Assembly: GCA_964017235.1 (NCBI GenBank)
Contig: OZ024933.1
Span: forward strand, 61,114,255-61,178,254
DNA length: 64,000 nt
Direction of reading: 5' to 3'
Source: Sabellastarte sp. h YS-2021
Lineage: Eukaryota > Annelida > Polychaeta > Sabellida > Sabellidae
Part shown: in pieces, positions 5,729 to 52,176 of the stretch
Layout of the letters: every line of letters begins with the position of its first letter
Position numbering within the stretch: position 1 is the first letter of the stretch
Made by a program: the position numbers and the translations under genes
The notes under the pieces: model-generated
Databases searched by the model: none
What the model was told of the DNA's origin: nothing
What the model saw: only the letters and a program-made list of their open reading frames with translations

Positions 5729-5768
5729 TGAAGGGGTTTGAAGGTTAGAACAACAGCAGAGTTTCAAA

Positions 5769-8800: not shown

Positions 8801-11800
8801 GAGAACGTCAGCAAATATCCTTAACCTGGACTCAAATGATGACAGACATGAATGCCAGGTTTAGCAGATGTTCCAAACGTCTTAAACACCAAGTCTCTGT
8901 AGCATTCATTTAGTCGGTCATGTTACAGCTTTTTCATTACAGTAAAACAGTGTGTAGGTTAATAAGCATCATACACTTCAAACGACAATCAGCAGCTCAA
9001 AACTCAAACCTTCAACACTCCACAGAAGAGATAAGAGTTAAACACATGACTACAAGTGGTCAAGTAAGAGGTGTGTTACTCACAACAGTTGTAAACCATA
9101 CAATGAATTTAAGGATATAGATTAAAATGTCTTCTCTTTTATATACAGTATATTTTGATATAATTGAAATATAGCGTTTTGTTTAACACTGAATTGTCTT
9201 TGTTTTTATAAGTCAAGGAAGGATCTTGGCCAGTACCTACAGGACCGGGCATTTGTGTTGAAACTTGTAAGAACGATTTTGACTGCCCTGGCGATACAAA
9301 ATGTTGCTCCAACGGATGTGGACATGTTTGCACTGACCCTGGTAAGAATGCTCTTAGGACATACATTAAAAGCTAAGTTTTTACAAAAATTCAGATAGTA
9401 TGACAAAGCTTATGGTAGGTCTATAGATGAGCTAAACCAACATAAATCCATCTCCGAATATTTTAATATGTTCTTTAACAAAAATAGGTGTATCAAAATG
9501 GAAACAGATATCAACTTAATTCAACAATTATGAGCCATTGCCTCATGTTCCAAGTATGAATGAAAAACAGGGGTGGGGTAAAATATATATTTATTTACAA
9601 TTTATACACTAGTAAACTATTATTTATTTACAATCCAGTAAAGTTGTAAAATTCATAATTTAATATTTTAATATATATATGAATATTTAATCAGAACATA
9701 TAAAGAACTCTAAGTTTATGGGAAAATAAGGGAACCTTAAATGTGGGAATCTGATGCCATTGCTCATAGATGATGAACATAAGGTCAACTTAACCAAAGC
9801 AGTTTAAGACATACTTAACATAAGGGTGACCATAAGGTCACCTTAAACCTAATGAAATTTGCAAGAGAATAGTATGAGCTGAGCATCAGGTTCCAAATTT
9901 AAGGTGGCCTTAAGTGAATAATTATGAATATTATTTGAGTTACAGTTAAAATTTAAGGTGAACTTATTTTACTAGTTGATTTGAATGGGCATAAACAATT
10001 TTAAAGTCTATAAATGAAGGAAAGAAGTGCCCATCCATGCATAATCACCTTCCATAGAAATTATGGCAACACGATAGACAATAATGTTAAACTAATAAGA
10101 AAACTTAAAATTAAAAATACTGTCCAAACATACAGAGCTGAGTAGAAGACTGTAACGTAACCTAAGTTAGCGATGTTATTATCGTTACTTCTATAAATAT
10201 TTGTTATCACAACAGACTAAGACAATAATAACTAAAAGAGTGGGTTGCATTGTGATCAGTACATGCCAAATTACTTTAAATTTTTTACCTAATGTTGAGT
10301 TACAGTAAGATGCATAACTGCGTATCCATACATATAGGTTACTTGATGGTTACTATGTGTACACAACTTCTGTGTATGGTAAGTAGTAGAAACCATGACT
10401 AATGTAAACTGAGTACATTATGTACAACCTGTACAAGATAGTTAATTCAACATTTCATTTTTAAAATTCTAGAAGTACTGGACACTTGCTTTACAATAAT
10501 ACATCTTTTAAAAGCATAGCTTGGATAAAATATTTACTATTATAAAACAACTTTTCAACGGTACAAAGTGACTGATTAAACTTCAATCCAAAAATATGAA
10601 TTATGGGAAGATATCTACAACACTTTTGCTGTACAAGTGGAAGGGGTAAACACGAACCCCTTACTTTAAAAAAAAATTTTTCCATATAACAATTAGAAAG
10701 TGCTAACATACCATGTGAATTTTGTATACAATCAAATAAGCTTGATAGCTATATAATTCAACAACCTAAATTTTTATTTTTAACCACATACGCATGTTAA
10801 AACTATTACAATGTACGAGTACTGAGGCATACATAGAGTCAAATGACTTGAGTATTTAATTAAAGTAGCAAAATGCCCCCTAGTTATGATACATAGCAAT
10901 TATAAACTAATTCCAGCACCAGTAAACGCTGGGCTAGCTAACTTCCAACGAAATAGCAATAAACTGTTACAGTTACACACTAAAACTGTCAAGTGGAGTT
11001 AACCTGACCTGTCAGGTACATATATGGTTAAAGACTTAAAAGAAAATGAATTAAAATACTGACACAGTGTAAAATTTACCTGACATAGTAAATGTGTACT
11101 TAAACTTGACCCTTTATGACAGTCATCTGACCACTTTGACCCAGTTGACCCATAAGTTAACCATGACATCAAAGTGCACAAACTATATCAATCATATACA
11201 CAGAAGCAGGCAGCCTTTTGCTATGCCATCCATTACTTTGAAATAATATACATTAAGCAGTCAGGCTGCCCTTAAAAACAGACATACTTAAAATTTATGA
11301 ACAAATGTGGGCAACCACCATGGTACATTAACAAAACATCCATTTGACATGATTTTACATTGTATAACCTATCACAAATCAACAATGTACTCTTTAAATT
11401 GAATGTTATAATTTCAACCACCATGATCGAACACCACATGTGACTCTTGGAGAGGGAAGTCGAGCACTGTTTAAATTCTTAAGTTACAATATTTTTAGGC
11501 ATATGGCTATGAATGAAAATTACCAAGACTGCAATGCCACATTAGAGTTAAAGGCGTAGGTGGCACCTGAACGCCGGAAGGCGTGAAAGGTAAGGTTGGA
11601 CTCATGGAGATTAAATTTTTTCAGGATCAGGTGAAAATGACGCCTTACCTGTGTGTCAGTAAGAGGGGCCCAACCTTTAAGGGTTTTATATTGGAACAAA
11701 GGGTCATTTTTTGATCCAGGTGTTATTGAAAGTACATTTTTTATAGCAGTTACGGGGCAAATGGGGTTTGCACCCAATTTTGGAATTTTTAAAATCTTTA

Positions 11801-14800
11801 CCATATTTCTCGCCTGAATAGTTTTAGACCACTTAATAAGTACGTGCATACCTGGAGCAGCCGCAATTATATATCCTCTTGCTAAATGATACAGAGGCGA
11901 GAAAGCCTGGGTATTGTGAGGTACCAGATTTGACAATCTTAGAAAAGAGAAGAAAGCCAAAGTATAGACTGCTTTAAACACTTGACCCATGTAAGTGGAG
12001 TTGCAGGTTCGAATTATCAGGTGTAGGGTATCTATGTCTATGACTTTTTTCAGCTGTACCTTGAATGGTCTATGAAGTATCATAGCTTTTTGGAAATACT
12101 TTATTCTAGGGTCCTGAAATGGCTGAATTGAAACACCCAACAGTGACAGTTTTGCTTTTATAGCCGATAGATGGTTGGACATGGATGAACTGGATGTATT
12201 GTTACTTTCCAGAAACTGTAGGTATGCAAGAATAATAAGGGGTGTGAGTTGGAAGACGTTGAGTTTCATGAATATTGTAAAGGCTAAAAATAATCTAAAC
12301 ATACTGGTGTAATTTCTGTCTGTTGATGGTCTGAAGGCCATGGAGGTCTTCTGTATACCCAGTTGTATCAGTTTTTTCATAGACGGGTGATGGCCTACCA
12401 AAATAAGGTAATTATATGGACCAATCTATCATAATGTGACTGTCATTTATAGGTACCCATTTGTATGAAGGCAATAATTGACTTAGGGTAGCATTTGGAT
12501 TAGTTCGAGTGTTCCATCTGGACAAGAGGTCAGCTATGACATTGACTTTACCTGGAATATGCCTGACTTTTAACTCTACATTCATTATTGCAATTTGAAA
12601 TTGTATATTGCGGGCTATGGCAGCTAAAGTTAGGTCCTTGGTCTTACCAGAATTTAAGACCTGTACTACAGCTAAATTATCACATGCTATGGCAATTTTA
12701 CTATTTCTCCAAGGCTCGTGCCACACCCTAAGAGCAGCTAAAATATTGAGCATCTCCAGATGCACTATCTGTAGATTCATGTAACCTAGGGGAATTGTAA
12801 GAGTGTAAACTTCAGAGCCCCACCATGCTCCCATTCCCTGCAGACTAGCATCTAATTCAATAGAATGGGCAATGGGTTTTTGGTCAAAAAATGTGACTCC
12901 ATTATAGATGGATATGAACTTAACAAACCAATTGATGTCCCTTTTAGCTTCCATAGTAATTTTTTTCTGATCTTTGTCTTCCATAGACCTTAAAACGTCC
13001 AGTAATCTATTAAGAAAGAATCTGGATGATCTGACGCATTTACTAACATATAGAAGGCTACCTAGAAGAGATTGCAATTGTTTTTTTATTGCAATAACAT
13101 TTTTTCTGCCACTGGCAGCACTTTTCCCAAATTTCTTTTAATTTTACAGGGGGTATAGACATGGTAAAAGTCTCTGTGTCTACTACTATGCCTTAGCAAT
13201 TTAAGCAGTTTGTGGGACTTTCCAGTTTTTTCTCAGAGACTTGTAAACCGAGGTCTTGTAATAGTTGACGCAAAGCGTCAAAAGAGGCATCAATCTGACT
13301 GGGTAAACCGATCCCAAGAATATCATCAATATAATTTATTACGTCATAATGACGTTGACGCATGATATGACGCACAGCATCACTTAGGCGCTGAAACAGC
13401 GCACTTCCGTTTCTATACCCGAAGGGCAGGCACGTCACTTAGGCGCTGAAACAGCGCACTTCCGTTTCTATACCCGAAGGGCAGGCACGTATCGACGTAA
13501 TAACGGTCGTGACGTAATCCCAAGAGATCATATTCTTTGGGATCTAACTTAACATGTCGAAAGGCTCGACTGATGTCGACTTTGTAAAGCTTGCAACCCC
13601 TACCTAAGACTTTAATCTGTTCAGTAATTGTGTCAACTGTAGGAAGCTTTAAAATAAAAGGGGTACCCAAGTATTGATCCCTGGGGATACCAGCATTAAC
13701 AGATTGACCCTGGGGGAAGCTCAAATCTATAATGACCTTACGATGGGTAGCATTAGGCTTTTCCCTAGTCATCATAGGGGATATGTGCAAGTTTTTAATG
13801 GGCTTGTCCTTAAAAGGTCCCAATATTGCTTTATGTTGACTTTCCTCATCTAAGTATGCTTGGATGTCCTGTGGGAATTCTGTAGCCGAAGCATGATTGG
13901 TTTCCTGACTTCTCAAAGCACCCTCCCTGTTATAATCCAAGGGGAAGCCAAACCTTATAAGTAAGGGTAATTGCTTATCCCAATAGTCATGAAGATATTG
14001 ATCCCATATATCTGGACTTAACTGGGACTTTAAATTGATCTGATTTTACATGAAATTATATTCTTTAGATTCTACCATGCAATTATGCAATGCTAATGGG
14101 TTTGCATCAACATCAATTGGATTCAAATGATCTGGCATAAGCTGGCTTCCTAAGGGGATGAAGCCAATCTTAAACTTGTTTTGAACATCCCATAACCGGA
14201 GGGTTGGACATGATGGCAAGACCTGTTTGTAGGTAATAGATCTATTTTTTATTCTAAGGGGTAGGTCATATTTGCTACTGCTATCTGGATAGCTTTCTTT
14301 GCTTAAGGGCATATCTAGTGAGCTTTGAGTGAAGGCGTCATTGTTTGACGCTTTACAAAGTTTCTGAGGGCTTGTACTAACGCTTACTTTACTTTCATGA
14401 GCCCTGCCATCAGTTGTATTTATGCACACTACATTTTTTCCCCTAGCAGAATTGCTATCAGACACGACGCCGTCAGCTGACAAAGGGGTAAACCTATTTG
14501 TACACTGAATCTCATTTTTAACAGTATTTTGGTGGTTTACCTTTGACTGACCTTTTGTGTATCTGACCTTGACCTTGTAACCCTCCTGACTGGAATTACA
14601 CCCATTAGGTGCTTTTTTGACTGAATTGTACAGGTGGCTACCTATTACATTTTTATGTTTTTAGTAGTATCTCTGACTTTTGCATTTATGCTATTATCTG
14701 TTTTAGTCTCTGCAGATTTGCGTTTTACAGCTATTTTTAGCACCTGAGCATAAGACATATTGTTGGCTTTGTATAAGTCCAACTTCCAGTTAGTACTTTC

Positions 14801-17800
14801 ACTGACATTAATACTAGCATTGTAAACAACTCTGGTTTTGAACCCATGTCTTACAACTTTATCTTTTACAGTAGTATTTGCATTATTTTTTGATCCAACT
14901 TTCGAAATGGGCACTGCAGTTCTGCAGTGACCTATTCGTTTTATGCGTCCTGTTGACGCTTGTTTCTACAGTCCTTCAATGGGTGTGCAAATTTTTTGCC
15001 TAAACTGAAGCAATGAGTACAAATGTGCTTATATAACTGGCCATTTGTAGTATGGTCATTTTTATGACTACATTTCATGGATTGGTAAAACTTACACGGT
15101 ACCCCTTGAGCCTCAGCTTTATTTTTTGCGGGATGTGAGTTACCTCCCGTACTTGTCACAATTTTTTGAGCATGTGCTCTTCTCAAGCGATCCAGTTTAT
15201 CCGAGCTCAACCAATCAACTTTACCTTCCTCCATGCGACAGAGGATAAGGGCATGGGCCCCTTTAGCCGTAGCCCAGCCAAAATCTTGGGCATCTTCCAT
15301 GATATCAGTCATGTACTCAAGCATGGCATTTTTGATTTTTACATTTTTTTCCTCTCTAATTATAGCACTAAAACCTGCCATCCATTGAAAAGTGGATAAA
15401 CTATCATATGTGACTCTCGATTTGGAAGTACCTGCCAGAATATAGTTCTGAGGCCAGGGTATTTGCTGTTTTACAGTGACCTGATCATTATTGCCTCTCT
15501 GTGACTTGAACTTACCTTGCTCATTTAGCTTGGCCAGTTCTTGGAGCCTGATGTCTACTGCATCTTGTATACTCTTGGAGGTTTTGAGAAACTTTGTAGA
15601 TGGGATGACGACGTCGTCCCCAGCGTCACTTTCCTCTCCCACATCCTGTAAGGGTGTGCTGCTCGCGTTCAGGGAACCGGCTATGTCGGAACCAGTCTTC
15701 ACATGACCCTGAAGTTGTTCCTCGGTTCTGTCTATCCGTTGCTCAATAGCCGACAGCCTACAACTAACAGCATTAAGTGCACTGAGAATTTGCGAATTAG
15801 TACTGTCATCCACATTGTCATCCCTAAGAGTAGCGGAAGTACTTGCAGTACTTTCTACATATAGCTGACATTTGCTACCCACAGGCCTCCTGTGTTCCTC
15901 CCCACATTTAGAGCAGTGAAATAATTTAGGCATACTGTCAAACCCGCATGAAAACAAACAAAGTTTTCATATAACACAGGGCCCGGTAGTATGTAAGACA
16001 AAGTATCACAGAGTTGACAGGAGAATAATATTAACGTTTATACTGTATTAAATACATTAGGCATATCAACAAACCCACGTGAAAAGACACAGATTTTTAC
16101 ACACAGGGCCCGGCAGTATGCAAGATAAAATATCACAGATTTGACAGGAGAATAGTATCAACGTTTATACTGTATTAAGTACCTTAAGCATATCATATGA
16201 CACAGGGCCTGGTAGTATGCAAGACAAAGTATCACAGAGTTGACAGGAAACTAGTGTTAACGCTTCTACTGAATTTAAATTATGTATATATAGTCAAAAT
16301 GTGAATAGAAAAAACCCGTCAACTCACCCGTCACAACATGTTAAAACAACAACAGTATAATACCATATTATATACGCTACAGGACGCCTGATGCAATATA
16401 CTAAAATAATTTAAAATAAAACTTGTAAAATACTTCTAAGATATCACTTAACAATCAACACATGAAAATTTTTTGCACGTGCTACATAAAGTAGTTAAAA
16501 TGGCGTCCTTGCAGTTCGACGTCCCTGTCAAGAGTGAGGAAAGTAAGGTTTTAGCGGGAAATATTTAATTTAAAGGTCAAAGGTCACCCAATTAACATTA
16601 ACCAAGACAAACAAGAAGTAACTTTTAACTAGGAACTGGAGCAATGAAATGTGTGGCGTCTTTACCCCCCACCCCCAGTATAACGATATTTGTCAAATGT
16701 GGACAGTTGTACATCTATAAAATAAGAGAAATAAAGCCCCCTCCTCGAATTAAAAGAAACAGTCAAATTTCAGGGTGCTACAGGGAATTTCAAACAACTT
16801 AAAATGTAAGTAATAACTTTTGTCTCTACTCTTAAAGTAGGGTGTTACTACAATTCATTAAGCAATGTGATATTGTTTCAGACTTTTAAAGGCCGGAATG
16901 TGGCTACATTTGAGTATCATTATTGAAAAGGGTGTAATAGGCTTAATAGGTTAAATACACTTCCAACTCTCATCTTGTAATATCTCAGCAAATGTAGCAG
17001 CCACTCAAGTACAAGGAAACTTCGACAACCAAACGTACTGGACTAATTACATTTAGGGATTGTGCCCATTAAAAGTTTTGAGCAGTTTATTTATTTAACA
17101 TACAATCATACACATAGTACAGTTATAAAAGAACATTAATGGAGATGCATGCAAAGGATATACACAAATACAGATACACAAATTTTGTTATAGCTCTGAA
17201 AGCTAACCTATCAAACACTTTTATTAAAACTTACTGAAAAGTAGTGTCATGCTGGGAGACTTTAAAGTCCAAGTTTTTGTCAAGTGTGAATCGGGTATAA
17301 GATTGTTGCATATTGCTTTGAACATGTTCTTTTATGCAGGTTTGGTAATGACACAATTACGCACAATTGCCATGCTTATAACATTTGCTTTTATGATAGT
17401 ATTGGCAAAGAAATAATATTAATGTTTATAACATATGCTTTCGTGAATGTATTAGCAGTTATCTTGCTTGCAGAATCTGTTTTTATGATTGATCAGCACA
17501 GACACAGTTACAATGCTTAGAACATATACTATTGCGAATGTATTGGAATATGATTGGTCAGGAAATACTTTAGATTAAATTCAGACAAAGGGCTATATTT
17601 TGAATTGCTTGATGTTTTTCTAAACACACATATGCAGGGTCTGATTTGAGTGGTTTGTCTTTCTTTCTGATATGTAATTTAATCATAGGCAAATTCTTTG
17701 TTATCAGCAATAATAGTTTATATAGAAGTTGGCTTTGATCAGAAATCAGCTGTCATCTAACAGGATTTTTTATAGAAGTTGCCTTTGTTCAGAATTCAGC

Positions 17801-20105: not shown

Positions 20106-21264
20106 ATGTATAATCTGCGTTCTGGCAAGCGACAGACAATAGAATTACCCGTTGAAATTCAGTTAGCAAAAGACAAACAATTTATTGAAACAGTATTGAA
20201 ATATAATACTGTGTCGGATATTGATACAAACATGTCAGATTCGGAATCATCTGCCAGTGATTTAAACTGTAGTGCTTTGATAAATGATTCGGATAATGAT
20301 TCCTCTGTGTTGACAAATGAGAAAAATATTGCTGGAACGTCACAAGCTTCAGGCATTGAAAAATCTTCGGATCCGGATATACAAACATTGATTAATACTA
20401 GGATACTGGATCAGTTGAACAAAATTGAACAAAGATTGGATAAAATTGAAAATAAAACTTGCAAGAAAACTTCGGATAAGTCGAAAATTAAAAGTTCTGT
20501 CCAAAAAGCTTCTAAAACAAAGAAAGCAGCGACTAAAGGCAGCTCGTCTGTAAAAACACCAGACTTTCCCACTTCTATGACGGAGGAAGCACTCCTTCAA
20601 CTTAAGGTTGATCAAAGGCTGCAAGAACTATCGGATCTGGCAAAATCAGGTATTCCCAATTCTAAATTTAAGTCCCAGAGAGGTGGGAATGTTGATGTTG
20701 TGATCAAAAATAGAGTAAGATGGCCTCATGAATATGTTTTGTCGGGTGTTAATAAGGAAAGAGTGTCATATGACCAGCTGAACGTGACTCAGTGGGTGGC
20801 TGGCTTTGGCCGTACCATGTGTGATGAATCGGATCCGGACATCAGGCAACACATGCTAGATTATTTAATAGCATTAATGGATGATGCCAACGACTTTTCA
20901 TGGACTTCGGCCAAAGCCAGCCACGCTGTTCTGTTATGTCGGATGGAACAGGGGGAGGTCAAAGATTTTTCAGATGTTTTTTTCTATAGAACGGATCCGG
21001 CGAGCAAATGCTCAGAAACATGTACAACCTTCATCCAATACTTCCGGGTCGGCACAGGGACATAAAAAATTTTCAAAAATCACAAAATCAATGCCCTGTA
21101 CATATTTCAATCAGAATTCCTGTATGCAAACCAAATCCCATGAGACAAGGGGTGTGCTTTACAAACACATCTGTGCTGCTTGCTTTGCAAATAATGGCAA
21201 GACATTCCCACATGCTGAGGTTGATTGTAAAAGCAAAAACAGGTGTTTACCAAAAAACGAATAG
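20106..21264 (+). pseudogene. gag-like protein of element B, one frameshift
   Basis: It starts at ATG 20106 (MYNLRSGKRQ). The N-terminal knuckle of A/C is absent. An acidic, Ser-rich stretch and a coiled-coil-like segment (LDQLNKIEQRLDKIENK) precede the core (RVSYDQLNVTQWVAGFGRT). After ALLCRMEQ-like sequence the frame shifts in a T run near 20975-20985. It continues with IERIRRANAQKH and the Cys/His motif CTYFNQNSC...HICAACF...HAEVDC in another frame up to 21264. Confidence 0.8.
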
Positions 21265-22013
21265 CAAGGGATAGGTGTAGACCTATCCATAGATCTAGGG
21301 TTTTTTACAATGCCAATGTCAACAAAAGCACTGCTTTGAAAGAATTTCAAGTTGACCATAACACAAGATCTTTCTGGTTAGCTCGGGCAAAGTCTTATAA
21401 CCAGCTTGATCACCGTTCATATGCAACTGTGGTTCATAATGGTAAGGCAGTAGTCCAAACATCGCAACTCCCTGCTAGTAAGAAACATGTTTTCAGCAGA
21501 CACAAGGTTTCTTCCTTGGATACAGCGAAGAAGGTCACAAAAGTTAATTTTTCTCCACAGCATACTTGTGAAACTGTCCAAAAGCAAATATGTCCAAGCA
21601 AGTTGCACCCTCAGGAGTTTTCAATACCCTTGACCAATCGGTTTGAAGCGTTGCAAGAAGCAATGCTCAGTGATGAACATGAGGTGACAACTTCTTCTCA
21701 CATTGCCACTGCTAAACATTTCACATCAAGGGGCAATAAAAACGGAAATGGGCAAACATTGGGCATAGCAGGGCAACAACAACAACAAACTAATGTAGTG
21801 GATCTATCATTTGATTCTTGTTTCAAGGGCAATAAAAACAAAAATGGGCACAAATTGGGCCAGTCCACTGATGAGAAAGTTCAATCATGTTCACATATAA
21901 CTGTTTCGAATACAGAAACATCACATTGTCCTATGCATGCAGATTTCACATTCTTGGGCAATAAAAAACGGAACTGGGTCCAAATTGGGAAGCATGCAGG
22001 TTCAAACCTGTGA
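21243..22013 (+). CDS. gag C-terminal/linker frame of element B
   Basis: It begins FTKKRIARDRCRP, matching the KKRIGHCRF continuation of gag in element C, so it is the next part of the same polyprotein after a frame change. It contains a Tyr/Val stretch (SYNQLDHRSYATVV) that matches [11 protein letters not shown] in A/C. It also carries three of four copies of a GNKNGNGxxLG motif. It is out of frame with pol because copy 3 has one extra A. Confidence 0.6.
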   Translation: MFTKKRIARDRCRPIHRSRVFYNANVNKSTALKEFQVDHNTRSFWLARAKSYNQLDHRSYATVVHNGKAVVQTSQLPASKKHVFSRHKVSSLDTAKKVTKVNFSPQHTCETVQKQICPSKLHPQEFSIPLTNRFEALQEAMLSDEHEVTTSSHIATAKHFTSRGNKNGNGQTLGIAGQQQQQTNVVDLSFDSCFKGNKNKNGHKLGQSTDEKVQSCSHITVSNTETSHCPMHADFTFLGNKKRNWVQIGKHAGSNL

Positions 22014-22124
22014 TTACTTACAAAGCATTGCTACAACTGATAGCAATAGCAATGACAAACAGCTACGTACTACTGATGCTATTCAATTCTTGGGCAATAA
22101 AAACGGAAATGGGACCAAATTGGG
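21731..22124 (+). repeat. four dispersed copies of a 33-bp motif (GNKNGNGxxLG)
   Basis: GGGCAATAAAAACGGAAATGGG plus AAATTGGG-like 3' parts occur at 21731-21764, 21827-21860, 21956-21989 and 22092-22124. The first two read in the linker frame and the fourth in the pol frame. Copy 3 has an extra A in its A run at the point where the frames part. Confidence 0.85.
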
Positions 22125-24030
22125 TACTATGTCAGTAGTAGGTTCAGATAATATCTCTGCAAGCAATGCCCCCAATCAGTTACAGATATTGCGTCTTCCT
22201 GATGGTAATGTTGAGGATGCCATTCAAACAAACTGTAGAAGTAGGCGAATACCTCCTCACATATATAAGGCTAGATATCGGTCTGTTGATTATAAAAATT
22301 GTTTATATCAAAATGACAAAAAATTCGGATTTCTTCCATTGAATGATCTCATGGTATATACTGGTCATGATGTCATCTGGGGAAATATTCCAAACATCTT
22401 ACAGGCTCACGATACTGTAAAGAAGTCAGGACTCCCTAATTTTATGTGTTGTAGAATTCCTGTACAAACGCAGCTTAAGGTCCAGGCCTGGAAGAAATAT
22501 TTACAATCTTATTGGGATAACCAATTGGTTGATCTCATACAATTTGGTTTCCCCTTAGATTTCAACAGAAGTATCGAACTGCAATCCACAGAAATTAATC
22601 ATACCTCTGCACTAACATATCCTGATCATTTATCCAAATACATACTGGAAGAAATACAATATGGGGCCATATGGGGACCTTTCAAAGAGTTACCTTTTCA
22701 GTGTCACGTATCCCCCTTTCTTACAAGGGAAAAGCCTAACTCCACCAGTAGAAGGGTGATCTTGGACCTTAGCTTTCCCGCGGGTCATTCTGTTAATGAT
22801 GGGGTAGACAAGGATAAATATTTAGGTTCTTATTTTGAACTTAAGTATCCATCTGTGGATGACATTGTACAAAGTCTTAAGCAACTTGGTCCTGATGCTC
22901 TATTGTATAAAATAGACATAAGTCGTGCTTTTAGACATATAAGGATAGACCCTGGGGACTTAGACCTATTAGGTCTTAAGCATGGGGATTATTTCATTGA
23001 TGGGACCCTTCCCTTCGGATTTCGGCATGGCTCGGTTTTCTTTCAGCGTTTTAGAGATGCAGTACGGTATATAATGAAAGAAAAGTTCACTTATCCGAAC
23101 TTATACAATTATATTGATGATTTAATATATACTGGTTTGCCAGGAGATATATATCATTCATATAACACATTAATACAATTGTTACATGAATTAGGCCTGG
23201 ATTTAATTATTTCCAAGCTTATTGAACCCACAACAGTAGCCATATGCCTAGGTATTGAAATCAATACGGTGAACAGAACCTTGAAAATACCTATTGATAA
23301 ACTGAACCAAATCCAACAAATATGTCGGGAATATGTCGGTAAACATAAGGTCACCAAGACTCAGTATCAGTCTCTCTTAGGTTCATTGTTATATATCACA
23401 AAATGCGTTAAGCCTGCTAGATATTTCCTGAACCATATGTTAACATTGTTGAGAAAAAATTTACATACCAATTTCATTAGGCTTGATGCAGAATTTCATA
23501 GAGACCTTAACTGGTTCAATACCTTTTTGTTACAATATAACGGTATTACTTTCTATGACAATGCTCCTATACAGGCTACTGTCTTCCTTGATGCTTCATT
23601 GCAAGGATTGGGTGGAGTTTTTAAAAATGTGATATATACGTTGCCTTTGCCTAAAGGTTTTAAAGGTTATTCTATTGTACACCTTGAGATCCTAAATATT
23701 GTTGTAGCACTTAAGTTATGGGCCCCATTCTGGAAGGATCAAACCATTGAGATCAAGTGTGATAACATGGCTGTAGTTGAAGTCTTGAATACAGGACGGG
23801 CTAGGGACGCCATACTGGCTACATGTGCAAGGAACATATGGCTTTTGGCCTCAATGTATAATGTCCATATGGTTATTAACCATATTCCTGGAGTTTCTAA
23901 TCTCATTGCAGATCTGTTGTCCAGGTGGCAAGGTACTGCCGTAAATATGGAAAAATTGTATAATTTGCTACCCACTTTTCAGTGGGTCCCGGTTCATATA
24001 GATCATACAAAGTTAAATGAAGATATTTAG
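21937..24030 (+). CDS. reverse transcriptase - RNase H of element B
   Basis: This open frame of 697 codons is the longest in the window. RT motif A is [14 protein letters not shown] and the substrate motif LPFGFRHGSVFFQRF. The active site is NYIDDLIY. The RNase H acids are Asp in VFLDASLQGLG, Glu in HLEILNIVVAL, Asp in IKCDNMAVVEV and Asp in LIADLLSRW. All catalytic residues are present, so this polymerase could be functional. The frame ends TAG at 24028-24030, directly before the recombinase in the same reading frame. Confidence 0.88.
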   Translation: MQISHSWAIKNGTGSKLGSMQVQTCDYLQSIATTDSNSNDKQLRTTDAIQFLGNKNGNGTKLGTMSVVGSDNISASNAPNQLQILRLPDGNVEDAIQTNCRSRRIPPHIYKARYRSVDYKNCLYQNDKKFGFLPLNDLMVYTGHDVIWGNIPNILQAHDTVKKSGLPNFMCCRIPVQTQLKVQAWKKYLQSYWDNQLVDLIQFGFPLDFNRSIELQSTEINHTSALTYPDHLSKYILEEIQYGAIWGPFKELPFQCHVSPFLTREKPNSTSRRVILDLSFPAGHSVNDGVDKDKYLGSYFELKYPSVDDIVQSLKQLGPDALLYKIDISRAFRHIRIDPGDLDLLGLKHGDYFIDGTLPFGFRHGSVFFQRFRDAVRYIMKEKFTYPNLYNYIDDLIYTGLPGDIYHSYNTLIQLLHELGLDLIISKLIEPTTVAICLGIEINTVNRTLKIPIDKLNQIQQICREYVGKHKVTKTQYQSLLGSLLYITKCVKPARYFLNHMLTLLRKNLHTNFIRLDAEFHRDLNWFNTFLLQYNGITFYDNAPIQATVFLDASLQGLGGVFKNVIYTLPLPKGFKGYSIVHLEILNIVVALKLWAPFWKDQTIEIKCDNMAVVEVLNTGRARDAILATCARNIWLLASMYNVHMVINHIPGVSNLIADLLSRWQGTAVNMEKLYNLLPTFQWVPVHIDHTKLNEDI

Positions 24031-24050
24031 ACATGTTTTTATGTTGCAGA
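24031..24050 (+). promoter_or_regulatory. splice-acceptor-like site between pol stop and YR (element B)
   Basis: ACATGTTTTTATGTTGCAG follows the pol stop and ends in AG at 24048-24049. The YR codons begin 2 nt later. No ATG opens the YR frame near here, so splicing or stop read-through would be needed to express it. Confidence 0.5.
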
Positions 24051-25127
24051 TATACCAGGCACTACAGTTGCACTGGCTCACACTGCCCTCTCTAGATTGC
24101 ACTTTGGCTTCCGCCCAGCCACAAGTAGTCAATACAACAGAATGTTCCGGGAATTCCTGTGTTTTCTGGAAATTTCCCAGGTTTCAACACTTCAGGTGAA
24201 TACTGTTGTCATTCTTGCCTTCATGGAGTTCCTTACTCAAAAGGGCCTCTCGCACGCTAATATCTCCAATCATTTGGCTGCCATTAGGGCTTCCTTTATC
24301 ATGTATGGTTTGAACACGATACCATTCAGAGATGAGAGGCTTCCTTTGTTTCTTAAGGCATTAAAGATAAATGCACCATTGTCCTTCAAATCTCAGAAAA
24401 TTATTACCACTGATGTTTTGCAATGCATTCTTCTTATGTGTGATGCCTTACAGGAACCAGTCATTTTTAAAGCATTATATTTGTTTACCTTCTTTGCTTC
24501 TTAAGAATGTCTAATATACTTCCCCACATTGTCGCCAAGTTTGATGTAACCAGGCACCTGGCCAGAGGTGATCTCATATTTTTAGGTCAGCAATATACAG
24601 TGATCATTAAATGGTCCAAAACTTTACAAGATAGGAAACAGAGTCATATGATCTCAATTCCATACCTTGGTGCCTCCACCCTTTGTCCAATCACAGCCTT
24701 ACAGACCATGTTTCAAAAATTTCCGGCTTCAAAAAATCAACCATTGTTCTTGCTACATAGACATGGCCACCTCACCCCCTTGACAGATTCTGTAGCCAGA
24801 AAACATCTAAAACAAGTCTCCACTATGTTACAAATTCACCCTCCTGTAACCTTTCACATGTTTAGAAAATCAGCCACCACATGGGCTTTCCAGAGGGGTT
24901 TACCAATGCAAGATATAATGCACCACGGCACATTGTCGTCGGCTGCAGTTTGGAGGTATATTCACTCCTCGCCCTTCAGAGGTTTCCAGTACTTTTCGTC
25001 ATTTTCTTCACCTTTAGCTTGGGGTTTGGCAGACATTTCTTTCACGTTTCTTTCTCACATACTAGAATTTTACAAATATATACATATAAAAAGTCAAATA
25101 AAGCCGTGCAACTTTAATTACATGTAA
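24050..25127 (+). pseudogene. tyrosine recombinase of element B, one frameshift
   Basis: The N-terminal domain (FGFRPATSSQYNRMFREFL) and catalytic domain are complete: Arg in LRMSNILPH, HxxR in HMFRKSATTWAF, His in HHGTL and nucleophile Tyr in VWRYIHS. A one-base loss near 24500 turns the expected FFAFLRMSN into a TAA (about 24502-24504), splitting the protein just before its first catalytic Arg. Apart from that it is intact. These recombinases insert circular cDNA without target duplication. Confidence 0.85.
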
Positions 25128-38899: not shown

Positions 38900-38957
38900 A
38901 ACACAATAGTTAGATATCATAAAATGCTGATGAGCCTTAAAATGTGTCTATACGGTA
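38900..38957. repeat. 58-bp repeat X, left of element C
   Basis: Identical to 44549-44606, right of the element. See the entries for 44519-44634. Confidence 0.95.
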
Positions 38958-39465: not shown

Positions 39466-40443
39466 CTAGTAGGAGGTAGGGACATAAAGGTGTTTTTGAA
39501 AAGCAAGGGAGACTTGATCAGAAGCCTGATGATCCAATGTAATGTATCTCCAAACGCATTCCGACGTCCAGGTGCCATGACTTTGGATGTCCTGCAATGC
39601 CACATTAGAGTTGAAGGCGTAGGTGGCACCTGAACGACGGAAGGCGTGAAAAGTAATGTTGGAATTATGAAGATTTAATTTTTGAAGGACTGTCTGAAAG
39701 TGACGCCTTACCTGTGTATCAGTAAGAGGGGCCCAACCTTTAGGATGTTTATATTGGAACAATGGATCATTTTTAGAGCCAGGGGTGATGGCCAGTAAAT
39801 TTTTGATGGCAGTTACTGGACATATGGGATTTGCACCCAACATAGGGATTTTTAGAATTTTTACGGTATTCCTAGACTGCAAGGTTTTGGACCATTTGAT
39901 TAATATGTGTAAACCTGGCTTTGCAAGAATAATGTCTCCTCTTGCTAAATGATACAAAACCGAGTACTGATGTACACTATGGGGAACTAGATTCGACAAT
40001 CTGAGGAAGGAAAAGAAGGCAAGCGTGTAGACTGCTTTAAAAACTTGCCCCATATATGTGGAGTCACAGGTTCTAACAATAAGATGTAACGTGTCAATAT
40101 CTATGATTTTTTTCAACTTAACTTTGAATGGTCTATGAAGGACCATGGCTTTTTGGAAATATTTTATCCTAGGATCAAGGAAAGCTTGGATTGAAACGCC
40201 TAGCATTGAGAGCTTTGCTTTGATAGCTGATAAGTGATTGGCCATGGCTGAAGCAGACGTGTTATTGCTTTCCAAAAATTGTAAATAGGCAATTATCATC
40301 AGGGGAGTTAAGCAGGAGATATTAAGCTTCATAAAAACTGTGAAAGCTAGAAACAGTCTGAACATACTGGTGTAATTTCTTGAGGTTGATGGTCTGAAGG
40401 CCATGGAAGTCTTCTGAAGACCCCTTTGTACCAATTTGGCCAT
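39466..40443 (-). CDS. tyrosine recombinase of element C, intact
   Basis: 325 residues from ATG 40443. The N-terminal domain has [17 protein letters not shown]. The catalytic set is complete: Arg in [10 protein letters not shown], HxxR in [12 protein letters not shown], His in SHGTWTS, Tyr in VWRYITL. It acts by integrating circular cDNA through a covalent tyrosine-DNA intermediate. A CAG acceptor-like site precedes it at 40458. Confidence 0.92.
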   Translation of the reverse strand: MAKLVQRGLQKTSMAFRPSTSRNYTSMFRLFLAFTVFMKLNISCLTPLMIIAYLQFLESNNTSASAMANHLSAIKAKLSMLGVSIQAFLDPRIKYFQKAMVLHRPFKVKLKKIIDIDTLHLIVRTCDSTYMGQVFKAVYTLAFFSFLRLSNLVPHSVHQYSVLYHLARGDIILAKPGLHILIKWSKTLQSRNTVKILKIPMLGANPICPVTAIKNLLAITPGSKNDPLFQYKHPKGWAPLTDTQVRRHFQTVLQKLNLHNSNITFHAFRRSGATYAFNSNVALQDIQSHGTWTSECVWRYITLDHQASDQVSLAFQKHLYVPTSY

Positions 40444-40456
40444 GGTCGGTGGGAAG

Positions 40457-40474
40457 CCTGATAAAATAATGTAT
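40457..40474 (-). promoter_or_regulatory. splice-acceptor-like site between pol stop and YR (element C)
   Basis: After the pol stop (40475-40477) ATACATTATTTTATCAG ends at 40458. Two bases later the YR frame reads on, with its ATG 14 bases after the AG. Confidence 0.5.
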
Positions 40475-41268
40475 TTATATGGACCAATCTAACATAATGT
40501 GACTTTCATTTATGGGCACCCAGTGGTGCAAAGGCAATAACTGACGTAACATTATATGTGGGTTGGGTCGACTATTCCATCTAGACAAAAGGTCAGCTAT
40601 CACATTGACCTTGCCTGGGATGTGGTTGACCTTTAACTCTACATTCATTGTGGCTATTTGAAACTGTATATTGCGAGCTATGGCAGCTAGTGTCAAATCT
40701 CTGGTGTGGCCAGAGTTAAGGACTTGAACAACTGCTAAGTTATCACATGCTATAGCTATTTTAGTATTCTTCCATGATTCCTGCCACACCCTAAGGGCGG
40801 CTAAGATGTTCAACATCTCTAAGTGTACTATTGTAGATTCAGATACCCTAGGGGAATTTTTAAAGCGTAAACTTCAGAACCCCACCTAGCTCCCAAGCCT
40901 TGAAGGCTGGCATCTAATTCTATAGAATGAGCAATTGGCTTCTGGTCAAAAAACGTGACACCATTATACACTGAGATAAACTTTGCAAACCAGTTAATAT
41001 CTCGTTTAGCTTCAGTAGAAATTTTTGTGTACTTTTTGTCCTCCATAGATCTTAAAGCATCTAACAATCTATTAAGGAAGAACCTAGAAGATCTGACGCA
41101 TTTACTAACATACAAGAGGCTGCCTAGGAGAGACTGCAATTGTTTTTTGTTGCAATAGCATTTTTTTGCCACTGGTAGCATTTGTCCAATATTTCTCTCA
41201 ATTTTTGAGGTGGTATGGACATAGTGAAGGTTTTTGTGTTTATTAAGATACCCAAGCAGTTTAGGCAT
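40475..41268 (-). pseudogene. RNase H region of element C pol, one frameshift
   Basis: The frame from 41268 covers the RT connection and the first acidic site ([11 protein letters not shown]) to GYLNLQ at 40828. A one-base change then shifts the frame, and [20 protein letters not shown] and VIADLLSRW continue in 40475-40816. Element A is open here, which shows what the shift is. Confidence 0.85.
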
Positions 41269-42507
41269 GTAGTAGGGCTTTCCAGTTTCTTTTCCGAGAC
41301 ATTTAAGCCTAATTCTTGTAAGATTTGACGCAAGGCGTCAAATGAGGCGTCAATTTGACTGGGTAAGCCTATTCCAAGAATATCATCTATATAGTTTATT
41401 ACGTCAAAGTGACGTTGATGCATAATGTGACGCACAGCGTCGCTTAAATGCTGGAACAGCACACTTCCGTTCCTGTACCCGAACGGCAGGCTCGTATCGA
41501 CGTAATAACGCTCGTGACATAATCCCAAAAGATCATATTCTTTGGGGTCTAGCTTGACATGTCGAAACGCCCGACTAATATCAACCTTGTACAGCTTACA
41601 GCCCCTACCTAAGGTTTTTATGTGTTCAGTAATAGTGTCTACTGTAGGTAGCTTCAAAATAAATGGGGTGCCCAAGTATTGGTCCTTGGGGATACCTGCA
41701 TTAACAGAATTACCCTGATGAAAGCTAAGATCTATGATAACCCTACGGTGGGGGCCATTTGGCTTCTCCCGGGTCATCATAGGAGATATGTGTAAGTTTT
41801 TAATGGGGATCTTCTTAAAAGGGCCCAATATTGCTTTATGATGACCTTCCTCATCTAAGTAAGCTTGGATATCATCTGGATACTCTATAGCTGAGGCATG
41901 GTTAGTTTGTTGACTTGCGAGTATACCATCCCTATTATAATCCAGAGGGAAACCAAACCTAATAAGTAAAGGTAGTTGTTTGTCCCAATAGCCATGCAGA
42001 TATTGGTCCCATACATCTGGATTCAATTGGGATTTTAGGTTTATTTGATTTTGCAAATAATTATATTCTCTAGCATCAACCATGATCTTATGCAGGGTTA
42101 TAGGATCTGCATCAACATCAATTGGATTCAAATGTTCTGGCATGAGCTGGCTTCCCAGAGGAATGAAGCCAAACTTAAATTTATTTTGAGCATCCCAATG
42201 CTGAAGAGTTGGACAAGAGGGCAAAACATGTTTGTATGTAATGTTCTTGTTTTTTATCCTCAGGGGCAAGTCATATTTACTACTACTTTCAGTACTTGTA
42301 TCTCTGTGAACTCTGTGAAGAGGGAACTGGTGAACTTTGGATCAAGGTGTCATTATTTGACGCTTTACTAAATTTGTCAGGGCAACCACTGCCTTGTGCC
42401 TTGTTTCGTGGGACCAAGTCACCAGACTTGCTACTGGAAGAATCATTATTTGAAGCCTTGCAAGATTTTTTAGGGGAAGTGTTACAGTTTAGTTTATTTT
42501 TGTGCAC
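41124..42507 (-). CDS. reverse transcriptase of element C
   Basis: The long frame 41124-42269 starts MPLRIKNKNITYKHVLPSCP. It contains the motif A Asp in [23 protein letters not shown] and the YIDD active site in [10 protein letters not shown]. It ends out of frame (ATKNNCSLS) because the A run that reads AIKKQLQSL in element A is one base shorter here. The linker 42289-42507 joins it to gag in another frame. Confidence 0.88.
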
Positions 42508-44015
42508 ACGACATAGTTACCACTAGCAGTGTCCATATCACCAAGTACTTCCTCAACTGATAGGGGGGCAAACCTATTTTCGCACTGAGTGTAATTTCTG
42601 TCAGATTGTTGGTGGTTTACCTCAGCTTGAGCTTTAGAGAACTTGACCTTTTTGTCATGACCTTCATGTTTGTAATCATGACCTGTGAATACCTTGTTAA
42701 CAGTTCGACGCATGTGAGTACCAGTAACACTCTCATTGTTGTTACCAACCTTGCCAGTATTAATATTTTTGCTGGCATTTGTCTTGGCTTCAGCCGCTTT
42801 TCTATTTACAGTTATTTTTAGCACTTGTGCATAAGACATGTTGTTAGACTTATATAGGTCTAACTTCCAATTTGCACTTTCACCAGAGTGGATACTAGAA
42901 TTATAAACAGTTCTGGTTTTGAACCCAGGTCCTATAACCGGACCTTTGACAGTAGTATTTGCTTTATTGCTAAATGCAACTTTAGAAATGGGCACTGCAA
43001 ATCTGCAGTGCCCTATTCGTTTTTTTGCATCTTGTTGACGCTTGTTTCTACATTCCTTGACTGGGTGTGGGAATTTTTTACCTAAACTAAAGCAGTGAGA
43101 GCAAATATGTTTATATAACTGGCCACTTGTCGTGTGGTCATTTTTATGACTACATTTGGCAGATTGGTAAAATTTACAAGGAACTCCTTGAGCCTCAATC
43201 CTATTTTTTGAGGAATTTGAGCTACTTCCGGTATTTGTAACAATTTTTTGAGCATGTGCTCTTCTCAAACGATCTAGCTTTTCAGAGCTCAGCCAGTCAA
43301 CTTTACCCTCCTCCATACGACAGAGGATCAGGGCATGAGCCCCTTTTGCCGTAGCCCAACCAAAATCTTGGGCATCTTCCATGATATCGCTCATGTAGTC
43401 CAGCATGGCATTTTTAATTTTTACATTTTTTTCCTCTCTAATAATAGCACTGAAACCTGCCATCCACTGGAAACTCGACAAGCTATCATATGTGACCCTT
43501 GATTTGGAAGTACCTGCCAAAATGTAATTCTGAGGCCATGGTATTTGTTGTTTTACAGTAACTTGATCATTGTTACCTCTCTGAGATCTGAACTTACCTT
43601 GTTCATTTAGCTTGGCAAGTTCCTGTAATCTGACATCTACTGCATCCTGAATATTTTTGGAAGATTTAAGGAACTTTGTAGATGGAATGACGACGTCGTC
43701 CCCAGCGTCACTATCCTCATCCATATCCTGAAAGGGTGTGCTGCTCGAACCCAGGGAACCGGCTATGTCGGAACCAGTCTTAACATGATCCTGGAGTTGT
43801 TCCTCGGTTCTGTCTATCCGCTGCTCAATAGCCGACAGCCTACAAGAAACAGCATTAAGTGCACTGAGAATTTGAGCATTAGCACTGTCATCCGCATTTT
43901 GACTACTAACAGTAGTGGAAGTACTTGAAGTACTTTGTACATAGAGTTGACATTTACTACCTACTGGTCGCCTGTGTTCCTCCCCACATTTAGAACAATT
44001 AAACAATTTAGGCAT
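42489..44015 (-). CDS. gag-like protein of element C
   Basis: 508 residues from ATG 44015 ([14 protein letters not shown]). N-terminal knuckle C-x2-C-x3-H-x7-C, a coiled-coil-like segment ([15 protein letters not shown]), a conserved core with [14 protein letters not shown] and [19 protein letters not shown], and a second motif CKFYQSAKCSHKND ... HICSHC ... HPVKEC. It stays open through KKRIGHCRF and [11 protein letters not shown], regions that are cut off in element A. Confidence 0.85.
   Translation of the reverse strand: MPKLFNCSKCGEEHRRPVGSKCQLYVQSTSSTSTTVSSQNADDSANAQILSALNAVSCRLSAIEQRIDRTEEQLQDHVKTGSDIAGSLGSSSTPFQDMDEDSDAGDDVVIPSTKFLKSSKNIQDAVDVRLQELAKLNEQGKFRSQRGNNDQVTVKQQIPWPQNYILAGTSKSRVTYDSLSSFQWMAGFSAIIREEKNVKIKNAMLDYMSDIMEDAQDFGWATAKGAHALILCRMEEGKVDWLSSEKLDRLRRAHAQKIVTNTGSSSNSSKNRIEAQGVPCKFYQSAKCSHKNDHTTSGQLYKHICSHCFSLGKKFPHPVKECRNKRQQDAKKRIGHCRFAVPISKVAFSNKANTTVKGPVIGPGFKTRTVYNSSIHSGESANWKLDLYKSNNMSYAQVLKITVNRKAAEAKTNASKNINTGKVGNNNESVTGTHMRRTVNKVFTGHDYKHEGHDKKVKFSKAQAEVNHQQSDRNYTQCENRFAPLSVEEVLGDMDTASGNYVVCTKIN
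43959..43962 (-). promoter_or_regulatory. splice-donor-like site in codon 19 of gag (element C)
   Basis: GTAG|GTAGTA after the first base of codon 19. Exon length from the ATG would be 55 nt, phase 1, compatible with the acceptor at 40458. Confidence 0.35.
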
Positions 44016-44518: not shown

Positions 44519-44634
44519 ATTAACCAGTTAATTAAAAACACCTTCTCCAACACAATAGTTAGATATCATAAAATGCTGATGAGCCTTAAAATGTGTCTAT
44601 ACGGTATTAACCAGTTAATTAAAAACACCTTCTC
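44519..44634. repeat. Y-X-Y repeat right of element C (internal empty site)
   Basis: Y (29 bp, starts ATTAACCAGTTAATT) at 44519-44547, X (58 bp) at 44549-44606, Y again at 44606-44634. Together with X at 38900-38957 the locus reads X [element] Y X Y. The second X-Y join (CTATACGGTATTAACC) is the uninterrupted form of the target. Confidence 0.93.
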
Positions 44635-45932: not shown

Positions 45933-47574
45933 ATGGAACATTTCTGCAGCAAGTGTGAAATACCACATATTAGACCAGTGGCCAGGCATCGCTATAGTTC
46001 AGGTATGACGACAAACATTGTTTCTACACAGGTCACAGTGGCCCCTAATGCCTTCTTCACCCAGCAGCTTAATAGTGGATTCACCAGCCCCATACTGTCC
46101 TGTCACTCTGGTAGTTCGGTTAACAGAAGTGCTTCAAAATCCACCAGTACTACCACTAGTGCAAACATACACCAAGGACAACTTAGAACTGATGAATTGA
46201 TACTGGCCGAATTGCAAAAGTTATCAACCAGAATGACACAAATAGAACAAGAGTTACAGGCAGAAACTTTCACCTCTACCCCCAGGAAAAGCAAAAGGAT
46301 GAGAGCAGGGATGCAAGGTGAGGACAGTTCCTTATTTGCCACAGTAAATAGAACAGATGGGTACATATCTCTGGATGACAGTGCAGCTTTATGCAGACAG
46401 CCAGAGACTGTCCGGATCCCTGTAAGCACACACTCCAATACTAGTACAACCACTTCAACTGTGTCCAGTCTGTTCACACACGGTGGGCAGAGGGTCAAAC
46501 AACATACAGCTACAAATGTGAACCAACTGAGTCATACTGAAACAGTGTTTTCTGCATGTCAGAATGTACACCAGGGTCAACACATATGAACCAGCCACCA
46601 AGGACCTGTCAAAGCTGTACAAACACAACAATCTTCCCAGCATACAGGCCAACCTCAGCACTCAAGGATGGCTGCCCCTCAAGCAGGTGGGGGTAATGGC
46701 ACTCCACAGTATCATGGCTTCAATCAGTGCACAAGGGATGGGGTTTAACCCTGTAGCAATGAGTGCTCAGTTGCCCAAGCAGACTTCACTTCCACTACCA
46801 AAGGTTCCTATACTACACTGCAGCTACAACAACAGCAACCAAGCCTCATAACTCAGAACATTATGGCGCCTGTACCCAATGCTGAACAACGCATAATCCC
46901 CAGCATTCAGGCTTTATGTACTACAACGGTGGACCAGAACCGAGTGCAGCAGAGTCTGGAGCAGCTTAACCATACAGCCACCCAAGCAACCAGCAAACTT
47001 AAAAGTAAGAAAGAAAAAGTCAAAGTGGTCTGGCCCCAAGACTGTGCTTTTGTTGGACACCTTAAGGCATGAGTGAGTTATGAACAGCTTACACCTGGCA
47101 CAGTCTGTGTTGGGCTTTCTGCAATCAGTGCAAGAGGAAACTGACATGTATATCAGTGCTAATATGGTAGAATACTTGACTGAACTTTTTCAAAACATGT
47201 GTGACCACTGCTGGTCAGCAGCAAAAGGTGCTCACTTAGTCATGTTAACTGGAATGGAAGACGGGCTCATCACCTGGAGTGACCTCAAGAGGGTCAATAT
47301 AGTATGTAAGACTTACATTAATTGTAGTAGCAGCTCACATGGCAGTCAAGTGGACAATGGCAGTGTACGGCACAACAAGAAAGGGCCCAGGAAACAGAGT
47401 ACTGTGCCATGTGAGGGTAGGGGTAGCAAGACCTCAGACCATGACCAGGGCCTAATTACACATAAACATGTTTGCACATATTGTCTATACACCTATAGTC
47501 ATCTCTACAACCACACAGAAAGTCAATATAACAACAAAAGAAGGAAGAACGGCAATGTAGTGTCAAAACAGTGA
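45933..47574 (+). pseudogene. gag-like protein of element D, fragmented
   Basis: It starts MEHFCSKCEIPHIRP, the knuckle counterpart of [11 protein letters not shown] in A/C. A long Ser/Thr-rich part follows. After several breaks the core is seen at 47022-47330: VVWPQDCAFVGHLKA, then VSYEQL, and WSAAKGAHLVMLTGMEDG ([21 protein letters not shown]). The Cys/His end HKHVCTYC is partly worn. Confidence 0.75.
46001..46005 (+). promoter_or_regulatory. splice-donor-like site in gag start (element D)
   Basis: TCAG|GTATGA after 70 nt of gag (phase 1). Phase-compatible with the acceptor at 49104. Confidence 0.4.
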
Positions 47575-49078: not shown

Positions 49079-49104
49079 CCTAGTATACATGTTTAATTTT
49101 TCAG
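49079..49104 (+). promoter_or_regulatory. splice-acceptor-like site between pol stop and YR (element D)
   Basis: CTAGTATACATGTTTAATTTTTCAG ends in AG at 49103-49104, followed by 2 nt and the YR codons (ATPAFQALLDL). Confidence 0.5.
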
Positions 49105-50028: not shown

Positions 50029-51280
50029 CTACCCCTATTTGGTATTTGGGCTTAGTTCCCTCTCACCACTAACTAATATCACTGTACCCATCACAACCAC
50101 AATCCCACTTTATAGTAATCTCTTACTCCAACCTTAGTTCCCCTTAGTTCCCCCCCTGTGGAAAAAATATTTATTACTTATTCTTAATCTTTAATCATTC
50201 TTAATGGTTGGTAACTTCTTGTTTCAGTAACTTGTAAACATCTCTATATTAATGTTAGTGTTAGTAATTCTTAGCTATTTTAATTGTTACTGCTAGTAAT
50301 TCTTAGCTGTTTTAGTGGTTTACTCTTCTGGTTGAAATGTACTAATTTATGGAAGTAAAATGTTTAGTAGCCGTTAGTGATTACTAGCTTAGTAATTTTT
50401 AGTAATCCTTGTGTGTCTAATTTTAGTAAATGTTAGTAAATGTTACTATTTGTATTTTTTGCAGTATGTGTTTGTACTAATAAATAATTTTATCCCATCC
50501 TGGCTTACTCCTTGGCTTGTAATCATTAATCTCTCTTTGCTCCATGCGACAGAAACACAACATGGCTGGCTTTTATTGTTTGTCATGAAACATCTGGAGT
50601 TCATTCTTCAGGTCACCCAGCATTGGCCAGGGGAATATAATGTGAATTACAGCTTATGGGAACTGCTTGCAACAATCCTTTACCAATCATTTCAGGAATG
50701 ATCAATGCAACAGCTGAAGGCCCTTGTGAACACAAAGATTGTCACAAAAGTACCCAAAACTCTGAAGAAAGGATAATAGAACCTTGTATTTAAAATTTTC
50801 TCTGAAAAGGGATGGTTATTGCTTTTGCACTTGGTTTTCAGATGGCCTATACTGCTCCTGTAGTCTTTTGTACCTTGAATATCACTCTATCAAAATATGT
50901 TTTGGCAGTTATCGTCTACAGGCATGAGCAAAGTTTTGGAGGTATGATTAGACCTTTCCAACTTATCTGCAGCTTAAGTGACATGACCAAAACCTTTTTT
51001 GATAATTTTTCTACAAATAACATATAAACAAAGCACAAAACAAAATGTAATAACTTAAAGTGTAATCAAATGAACTACTGTAACTTTTTATTATAATTCA
51101 TTAACAAATCTTATTTACTCACACAATTATTTAAACAATGTTCCCAAATTTTTTATTAAATTTTTATCCTAATTTGTTGAAGTTTGACAGGTGCTTTTGT
51201 TTTAAAAAATTTCTAATTTCTCCCTGTTGAATATAAATGTTTAATCAAATATTTTCTTATTATCCCGATATATGTTATCA
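50029..51280. other. 3' part of element D and unassigned sequence
   Basis: 50200-50460 is rich in TTAGTAAT / TAGTAATTCTTAGC motifs (about a dozen). The remainder shows no gene. Confidence 0.45.
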
Positions 51281-51485
51281 GTTGCCTGACTTGGAACTGA
51301 GGATGCATTTCAGAGTTCAGTTGTTACACCATTATAGATGGGTCATGATACCTCAAGGGGTCAAACAAGAGGTCAAAGGTCATGAAAAAGGCATTTTCTG
51401 TTTGGGCAATTTTTATTTACATATTAGTAGATTAGAGCAATGAGATTTTTTAAAAATATTACTTGTAAGATTTTAAGAAGGCACC
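51281..51485 (-). repeat. split direct repeat B2 of element E
   Basis: Matches 52301-52503 closely, for example ACTTGGAACTGAGGATGC, CAGAGTTCAGTTGTTACAC and TTACTTGTAAGATTTTAAGA. Confidence 0.85.
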
Positions 51486-52117: not shown

Positions 52118-52176
52118 TGAAATTTTTCATGTGAATCAAATGCCTTCCAATTTAAAAGTGACCCCACTGACTGTGA
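52118..52176 (-). repeat. split direct repeat A2 of element E
   Basis: TGAAATTTTTCATGTGAATC, CTTCCAATTTAAAAGTGACC and CCACTGA.TGTG match A1 at 57945-58003 with a few differences. Confidence 0.85.

Follow-up and report, generated by a model that had tools for sequence, protein, structure and literature searches.

Candidate gag-to-recombinase introns in Ngaro-like tyrosine-recombinase retrotransposons

Elements in the window and their relatives

The window, by which we mean the whole 64,000-nt stretch of DNA analysed here, holds five copies (A–E) of tyrosine-recombinase (YR) retrotransposons, with gag, reverse transcriptase/RNase H and tyrosine recombinase genes among them (Table 1). Pfam Phage_integrase and SAM-like domains were matched in the window YRs, some below the curated cut-off, and RVT_1, RT_RNaseH and RVT_3, also below the curated cut-off, place a reverse transcriptase and RNase H upstream of YR in the pol of element B. 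In the pol of element B, scanned whole, the Pfam matches with E values of up to 1 include no methyltransferase domain. Relatives were searched for in the window's own assembly (1.79 Gb, 647 contigs), and B-, C-, D- and E-type copies are named after the window element to which they were similar.

As judged from the order gag, pol, YR and from their repeats, the elements are Ngaro-like. Split direct repeats in the order A1 ... B1 A2 B2, as described for Ngaro-like elements in the portions of PMC9210276 and PMC8547959 available to us, are present in the B-type copy L016 and in element E, and mark these elements as Ngaro-like. In L016 a 183-bp repeat stands at the 5′ end and recurs close to the 3′ end, where it is flanked by two 459-bp repeats; element E has the same repeat order with lengths of 58 and 204 nt, element C has the 58-nt A-type pair only, and a search for the full set in elements A, B and D found none. 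The terminal repeats of L016 and element E are direct, and not inverted as in DIRS1-like elements. Three copies of an 86-nt unit lie just upstream of the element A gag (15967–16278), and one weaker copy lies upstream of the element C gag at 44049.

Four B-type copies (L013, L014, L016 and L018) have gag, pol and YR all open, and the other three match L016 at 98.8–99.8% identity across more than 6 kb, so the B family has recently been active. In these young copies gag is open at 1834–3015 and pol at 2985–5792 (element orientation); the two overlap in different frames and the open pol frame has no Met before codon 258, which makes ribosomal frameshifting from gag the probable route to pol.

Table 1. 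Features of elements A–E, in window positions
Feature	Position	Strand	Basis
Element A predicted first exon (418 nt), gag start codon to donor	15516..15933	-	open, 3n+1
Element A candidate donor GT in AAG/GTAAGT	15514..15515	-	gag homology
Element A predicted phase-1 intron, 3121 nt	12395..15515	-	donor to acceptor
Element A candidate acceptor AG	12395..12396	-	register with YR
Element A YR exon	11520..12394	-	ORF and Pfam
Element B predicted first exon (544 nt), gag start codon to donor	20106..20649	+	open, 3n+1
Element B candidate donor GT in CAG/GTATTC	20650..20651	+	gag homology
Element B predicted phase-1 intron, 3400 nt	20650..24049	+	donor to acceptor
Element B candidate acceptor AG	24048..24049	+	register with YR
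Element B YR exon, frame broken in window copy	24050..25127	+	ORF and Pfam
Element C predicted first exon (418 nt), gag start codon to donor	43598..44015	-	open, 3n+1
Element C candidate donor GT in AAG/GTAAGT	43596..43597	-	gag homology
Element C predicted phase-1 intron, 3140 nt	40458..43597	-	donor to acceptor
Element C candidate acceptor AG	40458..40459	-	register with YR
Element C YR exon	39466..40457	-	ORF and Pfam
Element C 58-nt direct repeat, 5′ copy	44549..44606	-	repeat comparison
Element C 58-nt direct repeat, 3′ copy, 100% identical to 5′ copy	38900..38957	-	repeat comparison
Element D candidate acceptor AG	49103..49104	+	register with YR
Element D alternative donor GT near gag start, CAG/GTATGA	46003..46004	+	conservation in D-type
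Element E AG of the first-pass annotation	53374..53375	-	at deletion, inside YR coding sequence, not acceptor
Element E GT of the first-pass annotation	57883..57884	-	kept in 6/13 E-type copies, not conserved donor
Element E repeat A1 (58 nt)	57946..58003	-	repeat comparison
Element E repeat B1	52299..52499	-	repeat comparison
Element E repeat A2	52118..52175	-	repeat comparison
Element E repeat B2	51279..51482	-	repeat comparison

An AG in constant register ahead of the recombinase

The first-pass annotation had proposed that, in all five elements, the pol stop is followed by a short spacer ending in AG, after which YR opens in a constant phase. Read from the window, the AG is present at all five positions, and the full arrangement holds in A, B, C and D, in which the AG ends 17, 19, 17 and 26 nt past the pol stop, respectively, and the YR frame opens two bases after the AG. 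It does not hold in E. Relatives of E are about 140 nt longer at the acceptor (flanking blocks lie 184 nt apart in a copy on contig C3 versus 45 nt in element E), and the AG of E falls within a segment whose homologue in the E-type copy L084 encodes YR residues (L-H-F-R-T-F). With this deletion at the acceptor and with its donor region also lost, element E is ruled out as an example of the junction.

Acceptor stretches were fetched for part of the matches to B, C, D and E, the matches listed being the 40 best candidates, and the YR frame was placed by peptide alignment in each fetched copy. Among the matches listed, the AG is in exact phase-1 register in 21/21 B-type, 22/22 C-type and 14/14 D-type copies (57/57 together). 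The AG is therefore more than a chance occurrence. In E-type, 5/8 copies among the matches listed are in register when scored by hand. (The automatic score is 6/8, but in L085 it took another AG.) The exceptions are the degenerate window copy, L082 with AT in place of AG, and L085, which has TTTCAG and a frameshifted YR.

Leaving out element E and L082, the base 5′ of the AG is C or T in all 50 distinct 60-mers, and in 44 of these 50 the preceding 18 nt are free of any other AG, compared with 18–45% for other AGs. The pyrimidine content of those 18 nt is 0.69 in B-type, 0.69 in C-type and 0.72 in D-type copies, against 0.56, 0.51 and 0.52 before other AGs. E-type copies show no such enrichment (0.57 versus a background of 0.56), which counts against the intron reading.

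A glycine codon in gag as the candidate donor

GT donors at the start of gag had been named at 15878 (A), 43960 (C), 46003 (D) and 57884 (E). We scanned aligned gag starts for conserved GTs and then placed the donor codon by protein homology and not by motif. By this procedure the A, C and E sites are not the best available: the GT at 57884 is kept in only 6/13 aligned E-type copies, and that at 15878/43960, although kept in 17/18, scores weakly (mean 1.4 on an approximate position matrix), whereas A and C both have AAG/GTAAGT 363 nt further into gag (the slash marks the predicted exon–intron border). Element B, for which no donor had been named, has a candidate at 20650. The D site fared better: 46003 is strong and belongs to a second phase-1 site, [AC]AG/GTATG[AG] at ATG+70, kept in 9/9 D-type copies, and is a possible alternative donor, although it is not the homologous gag donor, the codon for which is missing from element D.

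The homologous candidate reads AAG/GTAAGT at gag ATG+418 in C-type, CAG/GTA at ATG+553 in B-type (L016), [AC]AG/GTAA[CT] in D-type and AAG/GTAAGC or AAG/GTAAGG in E-type copies, in phase 1 throughout; the E-type site appears as phase 2 on one indel-bearing reference copy, and the gag frame itself gives phase 1. All lie in a Gly codon that is homologous in the four types ('..RLQELSDLAKS-G' in B, '..RLQELNHLALPQxQ-G' in D, '..IHTDIQQ-G' in E and the corresponding C-type peptide) and is followed in the Gag proteins by a basic stretch and then a W-P motif. Among copies retaining the codon it is GGT in 13/14 B-type, 18/18 C-type, 8/8 D-type and 13/13 E-type copies (52/53); the lone departure, AGT in the B-type L010, keeps the GT, which is thus present in 53/53. 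In the E-type L112 the donor reads GTTAGC. Outside this count stand 7/21 B rows (L012, L017, L021, L024, L026 and L028, whose fetched stretches lack the homologous region, and L022, with the codon deleted), 4/22 C rows (the L059/L119 copy, which carries a deletion; L055, which could not be aligned; and L065 and L068, in which gag is absent), 5/13 D rows (L090, L091, L099, L093 and the window copy) and 3/16 E rows (L102, which is the window copy, L106, and L115, unaligned and AAG/GTAAGC by motif). On the approximate matrix, intact B sites score 4.5–5.2, L010 0.4 and D sites 6.4–8.0, weaker than C and E. Further B-type donor candidates, whether in the 5′ leader or at other places in gag, were rejected as less conserved or in the wrong phase.

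Codon usage around the site was compared in copies picked by homology; a version with copies picked by motif was biased at the donor columns and discarded. Among conserved degenerate columns of gag, those using a single codon number 9/44 in C-type (including donor codons −1, 0, +1 and +2), 5/24 in E-type (−1, 0 and +1), 6/37 in D-type (the donor Gly, 0) and 7/22 in B-type copies (−1 and 0). A genome-wide tally of the C-type peptide pattern, with synonymous positions free and one mismatch allowed, returned 51 matches in which the Gly codon is GGT in 34, GGC in 16 and AGT in one, and never GGA or GGG. The codon before it is CAA in 50 and AAA in one, and the codon after it AAG in 49, AAA in one and AAT in one, while neighbouring codons vary (Asn, AAT 36 and AAC 15; Glu, GAA 34, GAG 16 and GAC 1). 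The corresponding E-like pattern reads CAA GGT AAG in 11/11.

The GGC matches come from at least one further family, with 'NEQGKF' at the corresponding gag position. Five of the 16 were fetched, and four read AAG/GCAAGT and one AAG/GCAAAT; AAG/GCAAGT is the consensus donor of GC-AG introns. The sole fetched GGC stretch that covers the junction (L128/L129) has TTTCAG in phase 1 before YR, and the downstream stretches of the remaining four gave no YR match.

Donor and acceptor consensus of the GT-AG or GC-AG kind, in matching phase, are thus kept across families, and the conservation of both sites exceeds what the proteins require. The copies are related by descent, so that the counts overstate independence, and the independent units are about five families (A/C, B, D, the E relatives and the GC-donor family). 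These families support the reading, but they are not the five elements first listed.

Predicted introns and products

Both predicted splice sites are intact in window elements A, B and C, in which an open exon 1 of length 3n+1 would be joined to YR by removal of a phase-1 intron of 3.1–3.4 kb. The sites are, in our view, very probably to be read as those of a spliceosomal intron that makes a Gag–recombinase fusion. The full-length RNA would serve as genome and as mRNA for gag and gag-pol, and the host spliceosome would splice part of it, from the donor within the conserved gag Gly codon to the YAG acceptor shortly past the pol stop, to yield the Gag N terminus fused in frame to the recombinase. 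The Gag part may bring the recombinase into the particle, or splicing may keep the recombinase low relative to Gag. An mRNA joining the first codons of gag to YR had been suggested at the outset: the mechanism remains the best reading, and its acceptor and phase were right for A–D, but the donor Gly had been missed and the exon is longer, the predicted Gag part comprising 139 codons in A and C, 181 in B, about 229 in the E-type L105 and about 375 in the D-type L097.

A conserved intron would account for the frequent absence of a start codon close to the front of the YR frame. In element C, YR could start without Gag, at an in-frame ACCATGG four codons past the AG. The A, C and D gag starts (near 15933, 44015 and 45933) encode a small Cys/His motif, CSKC....H.RPV, at the Gag N terminus, and this motif would also head the predicted Gag–YR fusion.

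Searches of the genome for spliced junctions returned no match to the C or E patterns or to a D pattern with the alternative donor, and a single match to the B pattern (L101), with three mismatches and in unrelated sequence; spliced genomic copies need not exist under the splicing reading. In a scan of IMG/VR with the B-type YR, one stretch fitted a pattern and encoded no relative.

Alternative explanations

YR might instead be translated as an extension of gag-pol, either through another ribosomal frameshift or because ribosomes read through the pol stop. In element B, pol and YR share a frame with a single stop between them, and in the young B copies gag-pol itself probably depends on a frameshift. 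Among the matches listed, however, B-type copies show pol/YR frames 0, 1 and 2 (5, 3 and 13 of 21), as do C-type copies (2, 16 and 4 of 22), and D-type copies show frames 1 and 2 (5 and 9 of 14), whereas the phase of the AG is constant: one-base changes in the spacer shift the pol/YR frame and leave the AG-to-YR distance unaffected. Frameshifting or readthrough cannot therefore serve all copies, given that the frame differs even among close relatives; it also leaves the gag donor codons unexplained, and we regard it as very improbable. Much the same low weight attaches to a start of YR by termination–reinitiation or internal initiation near the end of pol. In five of 14 D-type copies (L069–L072 and L080) the pol stop overlaps an ATG of the YR frame (ATGA), so that reinitiation may be possible in this subset alone, and the ACCATGG of element C would suit internal initiation. 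The YR frame of young B-type copies, however, has its first Met only after about 40 codons, and neither the YAG nor the donor would be explained.

That protein constraint or codon usage alone keeps the gag codons constant, with the AG a leftover of a protein motif and no splicing at all, is equally hard to credit. Every candidate donor does lie within coding sequence, and kinship of the copies inflates the counts; yet synonymous positions are fixed at the donor while neighbouring ones vary, and the only other Gly codon among the 51 matches is GGC, itself a valid donor, with the AGT exception keeping the GT. Somewhat more weight, though still little, goes to splicing from a main donor elsewhere, in the 5′ leader or at the D-type site near the gag start, which would give YR little or no Gag. 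The D-type CAG/GTATGG at ATG+70 is kept in 9/9 copies and B-type leader GTs score up to 5.9 (on the approximate matrix), but the B-type leader site is kept in only 10/14 copies, a B-type YR lacking the gag start codon would begin about 40 codons in, and the homologous gag donor is common to all four types.

Relation to known systems

Retroviral env mRNA is spliced, and in avian leukosis/sarcoma virus env carries the first gag codons. A Gag–recombinase intron would resemble that arrangement in having one promoter and one RNA, spliced from a donor within gag that links gag codons to a gene further downstream. It would differ in that this gene encodes a tyrosine recombinase, that much more of Gag is included and that the element is no retrovirus. 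Some LTR retrotransposons, copia among them, make Gag/protease from a spliced subgenomic RNA; there, too, splicing is used to set protein ratios from one RNA, but the spliced product is Gag/protease and not an integration enzyme fused to Gag.

With Ngaro-like elements, as described in the available portions of PMC9210276 and PMC8547959, the present elements share a gag-like ORF, RT/RNase H and YR in that order, as well as split direct repeats; they differ in the predicted intron: those portions mention neither introns nor splicing ('intron' and 'splic' occur nowhere in the accessible text of PMC9210276). A tyrosine recombinase, a gag-like first ORF and RT/RNase H are also common to DIRS1-like elements, which are set apart by inverted terminal repeats, internal complementary regions, a methyltransferase domain and an often long pol/YR overlap; 'intron' and 'splic' are likewise absent from the available text of the paper describing them (PMC3266345). 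More widely, the accessible portions of PMC3266345, PMC4157794, PMC5633606, PMC8547959, PMC9210276, PMC6681497, PMC12477816 and PMC10294476 contain no description of YR splicing, those of PMC2685390 contain none of the terms looked for, and YR is annotated in the available text as a separate or overlapping ORF with its mode of expression unstated. No report of an intron in a DIRS- or Ngaro-type element stood among the matches listed, as represented by titles and the starts of abstracts, and an earlier mention is possible, for example in the founding papers of Goodwin and Poulter. A recombinase fused to Gag by splicing was thus not found described for such elements in the literature examined, to the extent that its text was available.

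A wider proposition, for which we see the chances as evenly balanced, is that selection has maintained a single spliceosomal intron, ancestral to a large Ngaro-like clade, across deep divergence and through a change of GT-AG into GC-AG in one family; that the integration enzyme is made only as a Gag–recombinase fusion by host splicing; and that splicing efficiency determines how much recombinase is made per Gag and how much spliced RNA per genomic RNA, much as in env-splicing retroviruses. A conserved intron would predict a Gag–YR fusion protein and would extend a retrovirus-like use of host splicing to a class with an unrelated integration enzyme.

Other repeats in the window

Repeats resembling the head of a tRNA-derived SINE (AGTGGTAACACT ... 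GGTTCGA) lie at 18469–18534, 33683–33748 and 35482–35547, with inverted copies near 2299–2531 and 5019–5251. Tandem arrays at 17822–18139 and 32245–32567 have spacings of 53 nt and 51 nt, respectively, the second being followed by a partly complementary stretch at about 32571–32699.
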